DNA from: Pseudomonas sihuiensis
GTDB taxonomy: Bacteria > Pseudomonadota > Gammaproteobacteria > Pseudomonadales > Pseudomonadaceae
Direction: 5' to 3'
NCBI RefSeq assembly: GCF_900106015.1
Contig: NZ_LT629797.1
Location: 930,001 to 994,000 of the forward strand
Length of the DNA: 64,000 nucleotides
How positions within the stretch are numbered: position 1 is the first letter of the stretch; each line of letters starts with the position of its first letter. The notes beneath the pieces are model-generated. The model saw only the letters and a program-made list of their open reading frames with translations. It did not search any database and had not been told where the DNA came from. Positions 29,011-34,372 of the stretch are shown piece by piece. The translations under genes were made by a program, and so were the position numbers.

Positions 29011-29059
29011 CGAGGCAAGCATGAGCAAAGGGCCATCTGGGTTTATTGACGCGGGTCAA
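29011..29059 (-). promoter_or_regulatory. Anr box for ccoN2 inside the divergent hydrolase gene
   Basis: TTGACGCGGGTCAA at 29046-29059 has perfectly symmetric half sites, TTGAC and GTCAA. Class II spacing predicts a leftward start near 29011 with -10 CATGCT at 29023-29018, a weak hexamer. The box overlaps codons 9-13 of the rightward hydrolase gene. Confidence 0.7.
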
Positions 29060-29695
29060 TGTGAGCGGGAACTGCCAGGGTTGTGGGACGAGCCGCCGCA
29101 GGCAGCGTCTGGCACGCTGATCCTGGCGCACGGTGCCGGTGCGCCGATGGACAGCCCATTCATGCAGTACATGGCTCAAGGTCTTGCCGCGCGCGGTGTG
29201 CGCGTGGTGCGCTTCGAGTTCGCCTATATGGCGCAGCGACGGGTGGACGGGCGCAAGCGCCCGCCCAATCCGCAGGCGCAACTGCTGCAGCAATGGCGTG
29301 ACATACATGCTCAGGTGCGCCAACGGGTCGCAGGGCCTGTGGCCATCGGCGGCAAGTCGATGGGCGGGCGCATGGCCAGCCTGCTGGCCGATGAACTGGG
29401 CGCTTCAGTGCTGATTTGTCTGGGCTATCCCTTCTATGCCGCTGGTAAACCGGAAAAACCGCGAGTCGCCCATTTGGCTGCGCTGCGCACGCCGACGCTG
29501 ATCATTCAGGGCGAGCGTGATGCTCTGGGCAATCGCGAGACTGTTGCAGGCTATGACCTTTCAGCGGCGATCGAACTGCACTGGTTGCCAGCCGCCGATC
29601 ACGACCTCAAGCCCCTCAAAGCATCCGGCTTCAACCATGAGCAGCACCTCGACAGCGCGGTTCAAGCCATCGCCGACCGTCTGCAGTCGTGCTGA
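29021..29695 (+). CDS. alpha/beta hydrolase (KANL3/Tex30-like)
   Basis: 224 residues. [13 protein letters not shown] near 34-46 and nucleophile elbow [11 protein letters not shown] are typical of the small KANL3/Tex30-like hydrolase group, with a C-terminal ADHDL supplying Asp/His. Cytoplasmic. GAGGCAAGC precedes ATG 29021. It is divergent from ccoN2 (101-bp gap), and the ccoN2 Anr box lies within its first codons, so its own expression may respond to oxygen. Substrate unknown. Confidence 0.85.
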
Positions 29696-29916
29696 TGGGG
29701 TGGTGAAGCTCCTTCATCCGTCCTTTTTTCATGGCGCGGCTGCGGTAAAAGTGGTTGCGCTTGACCGGGCGGTCACGCAGTGTGGCAGGCAAGTGTCTGA
29801 GCCCTTTCGCAGGGGCTTGCGGTCGTGTCGACCGTCGCGCGACGCGGTACTTGCCGTGTTTCAACGCAAGCTGTGCCACGCATTGGGGCGGAGCGTCATG
29901 ACAGAAACATTGCCGC

Positions 29917-29931
29917 GCACCATGATGGTGC
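29917..29931. promoter_or_regulatory. NtrC-type enhancer site
   Basis: GCACCATGATGGTGC is a perfect 15-bp palindrome and matches the NtrC consensus GCACCA-N3-TGGTGC exactly. It is centred about 72 bp upstream of the -12 element of a sigma-54-like promoter. The non-coding stretch 29696-30035 contains only this site, that promoter and a T-rich spacer. Confidence 0.8.
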
Positions 29932-29983
29932 TTAATGTTTTTGGTTTTTCTGTAACTAGTTGATATTAAAGGATTAATTGCTC

Positions 29984-29999
29984 TGGCTCGGGGCTTGCA
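29984..29999 (+). promoter_or_regulatory. sigma-54 (RpoN) promoter of the ATP-grasp operon
   Basis: TGGCTCGGGGCTTGCA fits TGGCAC-N5-TTGCW with the invariant GG and GC in correct spacing and one mismatch in the -24 element. Transcription would begin near 30010, 26 bp before the ATP-grasp start. Confidence 0.75.
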
Positions 30000-30035
30000 G
30001 AGATACCCGCAAGTCCGGGTGACAAGGAGTACGGC

Positions 30036-31445
30036 ATGGCCCGCACCTTTTATGACGAGATGTACGACGCGAGCGGCGCTGTCCGCCCGCACTACTGCGA
30101 ATTTGCCCGCTGGTTGGCAGACACGCCGGATGATCTGCTGGCCCAGCGCCGACGAGAAGCCGACCTTCTGTTCCACCGTGCCGGTATCACCTTCACCCTC
30201 TATGGGGATGATCAGGGCACCGAGCGCCTGATCCCCTTCGACATCATCCCGCGCGCCATCCCTGCCAGCGAATGGCGCGTCGTCGAACGCGGCTGTATCC
30301 AGCGCGTACAGGCGCTCAACCTGTTCCTTGCCGATCTTTACCATGACCAGCGCATCATCAAGGCGGGGATCATCCCGGCCGAGCAGGTGCTGGCCAACGA
30401 GGGCTACCAGATGGCCATGCAGGGCCTCGACCTGCACCGCGATATCTACGCGCACATCGCCGGGGTCGACCTAGTGCGTGACGGTGATGGCAGTTACTAC
30501 GTGCTCGAAGACAACTTGCGCACGCCCAGCGGCGTCAGCTACATGCTCGAAGACCGCAAGATGATGATGCGCCTGTTCCCCGAGCTGTTCGCCGCGCAGC
30601 GCGTGGCGCCTGTGGATCACTACCCGAACCTGCTGCTCGATGCACTGAAGAGCTCCAGCCCGCTGGACAACCCCACGGTGGTGGTACTGACCCCCGGGCG
30701 CTTCAACAGCGCCTACTTCGAACACGCGTTCCTCGCCCGTGAAATGGGCGTGGAGCTGGTGGAAGGCGCTGACCTGTTCGTGCGCGACGACAAGGTCTAC
30801 ATGCGCACCACCGCCGGTGCGCGGCAGGTGGACGTGATCTATCGCCGCCTTGATGACGCCTTCCTCGATCCACTGGCTTTCAACCCCGACTCGATGCTCG
30901 GCGTGCCTGGCCTGCTGTCGGCCTACCGCTCGCGCAACGTGGTGCTGGCCAACGCCATCGGCACTGGCGTGGCCGACGACAAGTCGGTCTACCCGTACGT
31001 CGGCGACATGATCCGCTTCTATCTGGACGAGGAGCCGATCCTCAAGAATGTACCCACCTGGCAGTGCCGCAAGCCGGAGGAGTTGTCCCATGTGCTGGCC
31101 AATCTGTCCGAGCTGGTGGTCAAGGAAACCCAGGGCTCCGGCGGCTACGGCATGCTGGTCGGCCCGGCGGCGAGCAAGGCCGAGATCGAGAGCTTCCGCG
31201 CGCGCCTGATCGCCAAACCGGAGGCTTACATCGCCCAGCCGACGCTGTGCCTGTCGACCTGCCCGACCTTCGTCGAGCGCGGCATCGCCCCGCGCCACAT
31301 CGACCTGCGCCCGTTCGTCCTGACCGGCCGTGAAACCCGCCTGGTGCCCGGTGGCCTGACCCGCGTGGCATTGCGCGAAGGCTCGTTGGTGGTCAACTCG
31401 TCGCAAGGCGGCGGCACCAAGGACACCTGGGTGGTGGAGGACTAG
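30036..31445 (+). CDS. circularly permuted ATP-grasp protein
   Basis: 469 residues of the COG2308-type family. Landmarks are GYQMAMQGLDLHRD, YVLEDNLRTPSGVSYMLEDR, VVKETQGSGGYGMLVGP (the glycine-rich ATP loop) and a C-terminal SSQGGGTKDTWV. ATP-grasp enzymes form peptide or amide bonds through acyl phosphates; members of this group are predicted peptide or amino-acid ligases with unproven substrates. AAGGAG lies six bases before ATG 30036. It is first in an operon with alpha-E and transglutaminase-like genes, under a putative NtrC/sigma-54 promoter. Confidence 0.9.
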   Translation: MARTFYDEMYDASGAVRPHYCEFARWLADTPDDLLAQRRREADLLFHRAGITFTLYGDDQGTERLIPFDIIPRAIPASEWRVVERGCIQRVQALNLFLADLYHDQRIIKAGIIPAEQVLANEGYQMAMQGLDLHRDIYAHIAGVDLVRDGDGSYYVLEDNLRTPSGVSYMLEDRKMMMRLFPELFAAQRVAPVDHYPNLLLDALKSSSPLDNPTVVVLTPGRFNSAYFEHAFLAREMGVELVEGADLFVRDDKVYMRTTAGARQVDVIYRRLDDAFLDPLAFNPDSMLGVPGLLSAYRSRNVVLANAIGTGVADDKSVYPYVGDMIRFYLDEEPILKNVPTWQCRKPEELSHVLANLSELVVKETQGSGGYGMLVGPAASKAEIESFRARLIAKPEAYIAQPTLCLSTCPTFVERGIAPRHIDLRPFVLTGRETRLVPGGLTRVALREGSLVVNSSQGGGTKDTWVVED

Positions 31446-31712
31446 CAGGGCGCACTCACGCTAAATGACGGCCACGCCGCCGCCCCGCAAGGTGCAAGAC
31501 AAGGAATGAGGAGAGAGGTTTGGTTATTCCACATGAACGACGAATGACGCGGGATTGCGCCTTGCGGGGCGCGGCCCTTCGGGTTGGCGCTGTGAGCCCG
31601 CCATGCTGCGTTGCGGGACTTGACGAGGGAGTGGCCATCGCCTGCGTCCCACGCCTTGCCTGGCAGGCTCACAGCGCCAACGTGGCTCGCCATTTAGCAT
31701 GAGGGCGCCCTG
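31446..31712. mobile_element. 267-bp MITE-like element with 25-bp inverted ends
   Basis: The first 25 bases (31446-31470) and last 25 (31688-31712) are inverted copies with three mismatches, beginning CAGGGCGC. Inside are two further long hairpins: CGCCCCGCAAGG (from 31480) with CCTTGCGGGGCG (ending 31571), and TTGGCGCTGTGAGCC (from about 31593) with GGCTCACAGCGCCAA (ending near 31680). No transposase or credible gene fits. The first inverted repeat starts at the base after the ATP-grasp TAG stop. No obvious target duplication is seen. It may be a non-autonomous mobile element or a structured RNA. Confidence 0.65.
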
Positions 31713-31715
31713 ATT

Positions 31716-32666
31716 ATGCTGTCGAGAACTGCCTCCGACCTGTACTGGATGTCGCGTTACCTGGAGCGTGCCGAGAACCTGGCACGTATGCTCGACGTCA
31801 GCTATTCGCTGTCGCTGATGCCGCAGGACGGCCGTGGCGATGGCCTCGATGAACTGGCCATGCCGCTGCTGATCACCGGCACCCTGGACGATTACCTGGA
31901 GCGTCACGGCCCGTTGCACGCCGAGCGCATGCTGCATTTCTTCGCCCTCGATGCGAGCAACCCCGGCAGCATCTACTGCTGCCTGCAGGCTGCGCGGATT
32001 AATGCCCATGCGGTGCGCGGGCGGATCACCGCCGACATGTGGGAAAACATCAACGCCACCTGGCTGGAGATGCGCGGTATTGCCGAGCAGGGCCTGGGCC
32101 GTTACGGCATCAGCCGCTTCTGCGAGTGGGTCAAGGAGCGTTCACACCTGTTTCTTGGCGCCACCTTCGGCACCATCATGCGCGGTGAGGCCTATCGCTT
32201 CATTCGCCTGGGCACCTTCATCGAGCGCGCTGACAACACCCTGCGTCTACTCGATGCTCGTTATGAAATGCTCGGCGAGGAAATCGACGAGCTGGAAGAG
32301 CGTACGGCGCGTAGCTATTACCAATGGAGTGCCTTGCTGCGCGCGCTGTCCTCGTTCGAGGCCTTCGCCGAGATCTATCGAGGCTCGCCACGCACGCGCA
32401 AGGTCGCCGAACTGCTCTTGCTGCGCCCCGAGGTACCGCGCTCGCTGCGTGCCTGCATGGAAGAACTGAATCTAATGCTTTCCGGTCTGCCGGGTGAGAA
32501 CGGTCGCCCGGCACAACGCCTGGCCGCCGAACTGGATGCGCGCCTGCGCTACACCAGTATCGATGAAGTGCTCGATGAAGGCCTGCATGCCTGGCTCACC
32601 GACTTCATCCTGCTGGTGCGCCAGTTGGGCAACACCATCCACACGTCCTACCTGGAGGTCGCATGA
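31716..32666 (+). CDS. alpha-E domain protein (DUF403)
   Basis: 316 residues, nearly all helical, starting with the family signature SRTASDLYWMSRYLERAENLARML. Alpha-E proteins accompany permuted ATP-grasp and transglutaminase-like proteins in many bacteria; their biochemical role is not established. The ATG follows the MITE-like element by three bases and the ribosome site (AGGGCGCC region) is supplied by that element, so its translation may depend on it. It overlaps the next gene by four bases. Confidence 0.9.
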   Translation: MLSRTASDLYWMSRYLERAENLARMLDVSYSLSLMPQDGRGDGLDELAMPLLITGTLDDYLERHGPLHAERMLHFFALDASNPGSIYCCLQAARINAHAVRGRITADMWENINATWLEMRGIAEQGLGRYGISRFCEWVKERSHLFLGATFGTIMRGEAYRFIRLGTFIERADNTLRLLDARYEMLGEEIDELEERTARSYYQWSALLRALSSFEAFAEIYRGSPRTRKVAELLLLRPEVPRSLRACMEELNLMLSGLPGENGRPAQRLAAELDARLRYTSIDEVLDEGLHAWLTDFILLVRQLGNTIHTSYLEVA

Positions 32667-33460
32667 GACTCTCGATCAGCCATGACACCACCTACCGTTA
32701 CGATGACCAGGTACGCGCCAGTATCCAGTACCTGCGCCTGACCCCGCATGACAGCGAACGCCAGCAGGTGCTCAGCTGGCAGCTCGACCTGCCGCGCCCG
32801 GTGCACGCCCAGCTCGATCCCTACGGCAACATCCTGCACGTGCTGACCCTGGACGAGCCGCACGAATCCATCGTCATTGGCGCACGCGGCCAGGTGGAGA
32901 TCGACGAAACCTGCGAGGCCGAGCACGAGCGTCAGTCGGCGCTGCCGTTTTTGCGCTTCACCTGCCTGACTCAGGCCGATGACGCCATTCGTGAATTTGC
33001 CGCGCAGCAGAGCAGGGCGCGGACCGATCGCAGCGGCCTGATCGAGCTGATGCACGCGCTCAACGCCCATATCGCTTATCAGCCGGGTATCACCGCTGTG
33101 GATACCAGCGCGACCGAAGCATTCGCCGGCCGTCGTGGCGTCTGCCAGGATCACACCCACGCCTTTCTCGCCTGCGCGCGCAGCCTCGGCGTGCCGGCGC
33201 GTTACGTGTCGGGCTATCTCTACACCGATGATGCCGAGCACCTGGCCAGCCACGCCTGGGCTGAGGCCTGGGTCGGCGATGCCTGGTACAGCTTCGACGT
33301 GACCAACTGCCTGGCACGCCCGGAACGACATCTGAAGCTGGCAGTCGGCCTGGACTACCTCGATGCCTGCCCGGTGCGTGGCATGCGCCGAGGCGGTGGT
33401 TGCGAGCAGATGCACGCGCAGGTACAGGTGGCGCCGCTGCTGCAGGTGCGTCAGCAGTGA
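32663..33460 (+). CDS. transglutaminase-like cysteine peptidase family protein
   Basis: 265 residues. The transglutaminase-like triad is intact: Cys161 in RRGVCQDHTHAF, His197 in SHAWAEAW and Asp212 in FDVTN. An N-terminal beta-sandwich region (1-90, starting ISHDTTYRYD) is typical. Such proteins may act as peptidases or amide-transfer enzymes. Last gene of the ATP-grasp operon, translationally coupled to the alpha-E gene. Confidence 0.92.
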   Translation: MRLSISHDTTYRYDDQVRASIQYLRLTPHDSERQQVLSWQLDLPRPVHAQLDPYGNILHVLTLDEPHESIVIGARGQVEIDETCEAEHERQSALPFLRFTCLTQADDAIREFAAQQSRARTDRSGLIELMHALNAHIAYQPGITAVDTSATEAFAGRRGVCQDHTHAFLACARSLGVPARYVSGYLYTDDAEHLASHAWAEAWVGDAWYSFDVTNCLARPERHLKLAVGLDYLDACPVRGMRRGGGCEQMHAQVQVAPLLQVRQQ

Positions 33461-33472
33461 TGTACCGATAGG

Positions 33473-33542
33473 CGCGTGTCGGGTGCGCCATTTGCGCACC
33501 AGGCGCCTGGTCAAAACGCCTGTGCGCATGGCGCACCCTACC
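33473..33542. repeat. imperfect palindrome after the transglutaminase gene
   Basis: GGGTGCGCCATTTGCGCACC facing GTGCGCATGGCGCACCCTAC. It is a third type of dispersed hairpin, similar in size to the REP-like units, and lies between convergent genes where it may terminate transcription. Confidence 0.65.
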
Positions 33543-33559
33543 TGAATCGTTCCTACAGG

Positions 33560-34372
33560 CTAGGTGTTGTCAGGTTTCGGGGCGTTCTTGCGCTGGCTCA
33601 TGTGCTGCAGGTAGGCGATCAGTCGTTCCAGTTCGGCAGGTGCTGGTACCTGTTCGCTGAACCCCGGCATGCGCCCCTGCGGCCAACGTCGCAGGCTTTG
33701 TGGGTCACGGATGTACTGGCGCAGGAAGTCGCCGGTGAAATATTCGGTCGGGCTGTGCGGAATGTTCAGGTCCGGGCCGAACTCGGAGTCGCCAGCGCCA
33801 TTGAGTCGGTGGCAGGCCATGCAGTTCTTCTGATACGCGGTGAAGCCGGCACGGATTTCGGTGCTGGCATCCACTGCCGGCAGCAAGGCAGGGAAGCGTT
33901 GTTCAACAGTGGCGAGCTGGCGAATCCGGGCGACCTGGAAGGGCCACTGCTCCGGGCCGATCTGGCTGGCGGCCGGATCGGTCCAGACCAGATAGAAGGG
34001 ACCGGCGCTGGGCTTATCCTTGGCCAGCGGTGGCCAGGGGCGTTGTGGATCCTCGATGGCCAGCCACGCCTTGGCACCCTCGCGCGCCAGCAGGGTGGCG
34101 GCCGGTAGCTCGGCAGCAAAGCCGTCGAGGGCCACGGCCTGTAGGTGGTCGCCAGCAGTTACGCCGTCCAGCAGGGCGCTTATGGGCACCGCTCGGTAAC
34201 GCATGGGCCGCTTGTAACTCACGTCGTCGTCTATCTCGATATCACGTGCTTGCGGATGGCCGAGCAACTCGCTGCTGCTCCAGCTGCGTTGTCCGCCGCT
34301 CAGATGTATCTCAAGCTGCGCCGCCTGCGCTGTGCCGCCCAGAACCAACAGTGCAAGTAGCAGAGCCCTCAC
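33560..34372 (-). CDS. exported monohaem cytochrome c with N-terminal accessory domain
   Basis: 270 residues. Signal peptide of 18 residues (GTAQA end), a beta-rich domain of about 140 residues that resembles the Mo-cofactor-binding fold of oxidoreductases but shows no obvious ligand Cys, then a c-type haem domain: CMACH at 184-188 with likely axial Met in GRMPGF near 238. Probably periplasmic electron carrier. Its ATG overlaps the stop of the rhodanese gene by four bases, so the two act together. Confidence 0.82.
   Translation of the reverse strand: MRALLLALLVLGGTAQAAQLEIHLSGGQRSWSSSELLGHPQARDIEIDDDVSYKRPMRYRAVPISALLDGVTAGDHLQAVALDGFAAELPAATLLAREGAKAWLAIEDPQRPWPPLAKDKPSAGPFYLVWTDPAASQIGPEQWPFQVARIRQLATVEQRFPALLPAVDASTEIRAGFTAYQKNCMACHRLNGAGDSEFGPDLNIPHSPTEYFTGDFLRQYIRDPQSLRRWPQGRMPGFSEQVPAPAELERLIAYLQHMSQRKNAPKPDNT

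Follow-up and report, generated by a model that had tools for sequence, protein, structure and literature searches.

The 64,000-nucleotide window of the Pseudomonas sihuiensis genome analyzed here (contig NZ_LT629797.1, positions 930,001 to 994,000, renumbered from 1) contains three genes on the plus strand, in the order ATP-grasp, alpha-E, transglutaminase, as expected of an operon. The first (30036..31445) encodes a circularly permuted type 2 ATP-grasp protein of 469 aa (CP_ATPgrasp_2, 551 bits), for which a single solved structure was matched, PDB 3n6x, a putative glutathionylspermidine synthase. The second (31716..32666) encodes an alpha-E protein of 316 aa (Alpha-E, 318 bits) with no match to a solved structure, and the third (32663..33460) encodes a transglutaminase-like protein of 265 aa that has the Pfam domains Bact_transglu_N and Transglut_core, a best structure match to 3isr, and, by eye, the residues Cys, His, and Asp that normally make up the triad. 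An Rfam search of 29600-33600 returned nothing credible. The gene set fits a predicted ligase together with a thiol peptidase or transferase. Since only the domains speak to their roles, our best guess is that these enzymes would carry out ATP-dependent peptide or amide ligation, complemented by a trimming or transfer reaction of the transglutaminase-like protein, and that the product may be used in nitrogen recycling or storage. The earlier note on this DNA had gone further and proposed the making or breaking of a glutamine- or glutamate-containing peptide; this is not implied by the promoter, and we found no evidence for glutamine or glutamate peptides specifically, the one solved relative of the ATP-grasp protein being itself only putatively assigned. 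Metagenome correlations tie these domains to urea metabolism (PMC3597751).

Upstream of the ATP-grasp gene lie the elements of a predicted NtrC-dependent promoter. Scored against the NtrC consensus GCACCANNNTGGTGC, which specifies 12 positions, the proximal dyad GCACCATGATGGTGC (29917..29931, plus strand) matches at 12/12, which bears out the exact match claimed for it before, and a distal NtrC-like dyad GCCACGCATTGGGGC (29875..29889, plus strand), 42 bp further upstream, matches at 8/12 in the window. Both conserved dyads lie 5' of a sigma-54 -24/-12 promoter element, TGGCTCGGGGCTTGCA (29984..29999, plus strand), which agrees with the sigma-54 consensus TGGCACRNNNNTTGCW at 11 of the 12 scored positions and has its -24 GG and -12 GC separated by 10 bases, the correct spacing that the earlier note had ascribed to it. 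The spacer between enhancer and promoter carries an IHF-type site on the minus strand, TATCAACTAGTTA (29953..29965), matching all 9 scored positions of the IHF consensus WATCAANNNNTTR; further 8/9 IHF matches are present in the spacer. Because the spacer is AT-rich, single IHF matches are weak, and the fixed position of the site among relatives is the better argument. If C29998 is taken as -12, transcription is predicted to start at 30010 (plus strand), the position also given before, leaving a predicted leader of 26 bases that ends at the ATG at 30036 and includes a ribosome-binding site AAGGAG (30024..30029, plus strand). The arrangement resembles classical NtrC/sigma-54 promoters such as glnAp2, where a -24/-12 promoter is likewise preceded by a pair of NtrC dyads, but in glnAp2-type promoters the dyads are spaced about 32 bp apart and IHF is not known to be involved, whereas the spacing here is 42 bp and there is an IHF-type site. 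The earlier note did not mention the second dyad, the site for IHF, or a repeat of 270 bp that separates genes 1 and 2.

Taken alone, the sigma-54 match in the window would be weak evidence, because matches with up to 2 mismatches are no commoner in the window than expected by chance (23 vs 26.1 expected, 2 of the 23 having 1 mismatch). In the 5.48-Mb genome, the NtrC consensus is matched exactly at 3 places, and its reversed control at 0; one of the 3 (L003) lies within open frames. The joint pattern GCAC-N7-GTGC, N35-65, TGGC-N7-TTGC is found at 2 places in the genome, the other of which is within a long open frame, and at 0 in the control. By themselves, both motifs would amount to moderate evidence for the predicted promoter. 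The genome contains an ntrC gene (795 bits against an NCBIfam cut-off of 558.6). Upstream of its glnK, scored with the same consensus, there is no clear NtrC/sigma-54 pair. An identical GCACCATGATGGTGC stands elsewhere in the genome where one open frame ends (L002 1501-1515, G000:C1:2396775) and precedes a frame that we named by eye as an MFS-type transporter, with no good sigma-54 match within the 220 bases examined by eye.

Conservation among close relatives carries most of the argument. We collected 80 loci encoding a close ATP-grasp relative, the best 80 of at least 589 in a scan of named genomes; 78 of these best 80 are labelled Pseudomonas, and the window together with the 80 forms a set of 81 loci. 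Across this set (the window plus the best 80 of at least 589), 77/81 loci have a sigma-54 match scoring 11/12 or more in the same position ahead of the ATP-grasp ATG, the four without a sigma-54 promoter at this place being L037, L062, L070, and L081. In 73/81 loci, the distance from the best NtrC-like match down to the best sigma-54 match is exactly 67 bp, with L015, L021, L036, L037, L038 (68 bp), L062, L070, and L081 as the exceptions, and the 15-mer found 67 bp upstream of the sigma-54 site scores at least 9/12 in 74/77 loci (12 in 1, 11 in 13, 10 in 55, and 9 in 5). After dereplication at 85%, the footprint of the remaining 50 Pseudomonas loci includes a pair of conserved dyads that precede the -24 element by 67 and 109 bases, with 42 bp from one to the other; the distal one, at 29875-29889 in the window, is the second strongest. 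A minus-strand IHF match of at least 8/9 occupies one fixed place in 46/50 of the dereplicated loci. A search of orthologous upstream regions for both motifs had been proposed in the earlier note, and these counts give it a positive answer. In our reading, this conservation settles the reality of the predicted NtrC/sigma-54 promoter, and the picture is one of a putatively complete NtrC/IHF/sigma-54 architecture, richer than had been described.

The gene family reaches well beyond these relatives, the ATP-grasp protein having a match at E<=1e-60 in 182/349 genomes of the phylum. From the matches listed, we hand-picked 60 upstream regions across families, with gene starts projected from the query. 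Sigma-54 matches of at least 10/12 within 160 bp were found at 3/3 loci of the same family, at 18/28 from the remaining families of the class (shuffles predict 0.89), and at 11/29 in other classes (shuffles predict 0.68), which places a sigma-54 site before the ATP-grasp gene in 29/57 hand-picked loci outside the family where about 1.6 would be expected; matches on the reverse strand numbered 0, 1, and 0 in the same three groups. NtrC-like matches of at least 10/12 within 350 bp occur at 3/3 loci of the same family, 13/28 in other families of the class (0.95 expected), and 1/29 in other classes (0.45 expected). It is on the shuffle-backed counts in other families and classes that we take the predicted sigma-54 link to extend beyond Pseudomonas. 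NtrC-like dyads, by contrast, occur in the class and, with this consensus, hardly outside it. The sigma-54 sites before the ATP-grasp gene in other families are new here.

A second ATP-grasp copy in this genome is fused to alpha-E, with a large transglutaminase/DUF2126 gene before it and another transglutaminase-like gene after it. The large DUF2126 gene finds some match in 55/59 genus genomes, many of them only to shorter transglutaminases. We examined the best 30 loci of a longer list (L235-L264), for which the counts are raw and have no shuffled background. A TGGC...TTGC sigma-54 site of 10-11/12 lies 52-55 bp before the start of the DUF2126 gene in 30/30 of these loci; it reads TGGCATAAGTCTTGCG in 26/30, with close variants in L238, L239, L240, and L241, and in this genome it stands at L094 3484-3499. 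An NtrC-like match of at least 9/12 lies 55-68 bp further upstream in 22/30 (again the best 30), and in this genome the match is weak (9/12, 96 bp up). That the fused DUF2126 operon carries a predicted sigma-54 site in 30/30 Pseudomonas loci examined is also new here.

Some Pseudomonas contain a second, more diverged copy of the operon, which we call type-B and which is without the promoter at this place. Among 20 hand-picked genus loci, the 67-bp architecture is present in 9 and absent in 11; since the selection favoured second copies and lower identity, 9/20 is not a frequency. Nine of those 11 type-B loci (L158, L160, L162, and L164-L169), together with L062, L070, and L081, have a GG-N10-GC site of 10-11/12 located 68-358 bp before the ATG, which on raw counts without shuffled background is a candidate only. 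Most of these sites come with a long leader. Close to the gene, many type-B copies also share a conserved palindrome resembling GCACnNTGAGGTGC, and an Rfam search of the nine type-B loci gave no credible match.

An Anbu partner in this genome was considered and rejected. The sole proteasome-family match (E<=1) adjoins HslU and is therefore HslV, which leaves the genome with no Anbu gene found. In the genus, the ATP-grasp match is present in 165/199 genomes and a second proteasome-family match in only 10. Scanning with an Anbu motif placed it in at least 10/80 named loci (L012, L017, L020, L021, L025, L026, L027, L036, L043, and L081), a minimum since part of the loci are truncated; 9 of these 10 have the sigma-54 site. 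The predicted sigma-54 promoter is thus independent of Anbu, and the fact that a conserved promoter of this type serves both paralogous operons and recurs in other classes suggests that the system can do without Anbu.

We consider it very probable that phosphorylated NtrC activates the sigma-54 promoter and thereby raises expression of the ATP-grasp, alpha-E, and transglutaminase genes in nitrogen scarcity. The sites and their conservation were computed here, while nitrogen induction and NtrC dependence come from papers on related operons. NtrC dimers would bind the two dyads, centred about 74 and about 116 bp upstream of the -12 GC, IHF would bend the AT-rich spacer, and the NtrC oligomer would contact sigma-54 RNA polymerase at 29984-29999, with transcription starting near 30010; when nitrogen is scarce, the result would be more expression of the whole operon. 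The control by NtrC and sigma-54 in nitrogen limitation proposed in the earlier note is well supported by the architecture, by the ntrC gene, and by the published related operons.

In Pseudomonas putida, PP_2686, PP_2687, and PP_2688 are 12.6-, 11.0-, and 14.7-fold up in nitrogen limitation and PP_2685 only 1.1-fold (PMC7801951), a study that credits Hervas 2009 with the induction of PP_2685-2688. PP2685-2687 are listed as up in PMC3325844, PP_2688 has a log2 fold of 3.99 for nitrate/ammonium, and its promoter shows a 3.7-fold response to nitrogen depletion, with no response from the PP_2685 and glnK promoters (PMC8050072). Anbu is also upregulated in nitrogen-limited P. putida (PMC5666114). 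The P. putida KT2440 cluster PP_2688-PP_2685 (ATP-grasp, PP_2687, transglutaminase, Anbu) is like the operon described here in that ATP-grasp and transglutaminase genes are clustered, and it is induced in nitrogen limitation, but it includes Anbu, which was not found in this genome; the likeness is one of genes and induction, with promoter type outside the comparison. Induction there persists in an rpoN mutant. In an ntrC mutant of Burkholderia cenocepacia, I35_5080, 5081, 5082, and 5083 change by -8.2-, -9.4-, -9.4-, and -6.0-fold, and I35_5080-83 are named among the common sigma-54 and NtrC targets (PMC5491218). These genes (BCAM1233-1236) encode DUF404/407, DUF403, transglutaminase, and large transglutaminase proteins and resemble those described here, except that there they form one cluster that includes the large transglutaminase, whereas here the split and fused operons lie apart. 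In Caulobacter, NtrC affects a transglutaminase homologue, hvyA, which goes upwards in the mutant (PMC10274813). A response of the same gene set to nitrogen and to NtrC is already on record from P. putida and B. cenocepacia, so the nitrogen regulation is not new in kind. The covered part of the main text of a comparative sigma-54 study (PMC3162934) mentions no transglutaminase, COG2308, COG2307, DUF403, or proteasome, and the covered parts of PMC8407117, PMC5427061, and PMC13289732 hold nothing on regulation of this operon.

Several observations count against our preferred explanation. The distal dyad is weak in the window, at 8/12, the promoter is missing from its usual position in 4/81 loci, and glnK of this genome, taken as a positive control, shows no clear NtrC/sigma-54 pair with the same consensus. 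In addition, in the P. putida rpoN mutant PP_2686-2688 are still 14.2- to 19.6-fold up (PMC7801951, Table 2), which conflicts with sigma-54 dependence. In the same mutant, urtA-D are still 6.9- to 16.7-fold up in nitrogen limitation (PMC7801951). Doubt falls either on the strain or the condition used or on sigma-54 dependence in P. putida; the B. cenocepacia data speak in favour of such dependence.

A broader proposition, whose chances we put at about even, is that sigma-54 control is ancestral and phylum-wide for the gene family, with split and fused operons each having their own conserved promoter, with or without Anbu. The promoter type is common to both paralogous operons and recurs in other classes. 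If this proposition were true, then the enzyme set would belong to the core response to nitrogen scarcity, its product would be made only during shortage, and Anbu would be a dispensable accessory. The regulatory link having already been reported in P. putida and B. cenocepacia, the surprise is limited, and the value of a conserved nitrogen-starvation promoter is that it tells when to seek the product and which mutants to compare.

The activator of the sigma-54 promoter could instead be a different enhancer-binding protein that recognizes a GC-rich palindrome of similar sequence, in which case the signal would not be nitrogen limitation as such. The genome does encode many other proteins with NtrC-type sigma-54 activator domains (about twenty strong partial matches), and in other classes sigma-54 sites accompany 11/29 loci and NtrC-like dyads 1/29, but the dyad here matches the NtrC consensus at 12/12, and published operons of the same kind respond to nitrogen and to ntrC, which together make this a quite improbable reading. 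We give even less credence to the possibility that the palindrome at 29917-29931 and its T-rich tail are the terminator of the upstream hydrolase gene (29021-29695), with the NtrC match arising by chance. A terminator scan flags exactly this stem and T-rich tail, as one of 3 sites found where 2.5 are expected; however, a relative of the upstream hydrolase was found in only 5/80 loci, yet the dyad is at the same offset in 74/77, and at least 5 T occur in the next 10 bases in only 15/77. It is the conservation of the dyad that leads us to reject the terminator and to retain NtrC activation of the sigma-54 promoter.

Even with NtrC as the activator, the promoter may in this strain drive mainly gene 1, with alpha-E and transglutaminase uncoupled by the 270-bp self-complementary repeat that separates genes 1 and 2 (31446..31715, plus strand; ends about CAGGGCGC...GCGCCCTG). 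This is unlikely, though the least unlikely of the three alternatives. The repeat has a very stable predicted fold (z -8.5), and the gap between genes 1 and 2 is only 2-13 bp in 79/80 relatives (the best 80 of at least 589), with 143 bp in L036. Set against this, no terminator-like site and no sigma-70-like promoter is flagged inside the repeat, and another Pseudomonas species (G148, locus L151) has the repeat at the same place, directly after the stop codon of an ATP-grasp gene and followed by the alpha-E gene and the beginning of the transglutaminase gene. The ATP-grasp protein of G148 is 91% identical and the repeat arms have diverged. Because G148 has the repeat at this site while closer relatives are without it, the repeat would either have inserted here more than once or have been lost from many lineages.

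The repeat itself is a mobile-looking, highly structured element. Rfam 15 gave no match in it at E<=0.5; repeat families of P. fluorescens have been catalogued (PMC2718517). Matches at E<=1e-8 are found in 52/149 genus genomes, with at most 5 candidates scored per genome. For covariation, we hand-picked 18 copies from the longer matches, 17 of them distinct. In the predicted 91-pair structure, 95.9% of cells are paired over the 18 copies, and 61/91 pairs have changes on both sides, against 38.6 for shuffled and 18-26 for slid controls. Prediction and scoring drew on one and the same alignment, which favours the structure, but the margin is large. The stem arms of the copies (among them L087-L091 and L275-L303) differ yet stay complementary. 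The repeat is also present in 4 plasmid records, 2 from Azotobacter, 1 from Pseudomonas, and 1 from Halomonas.
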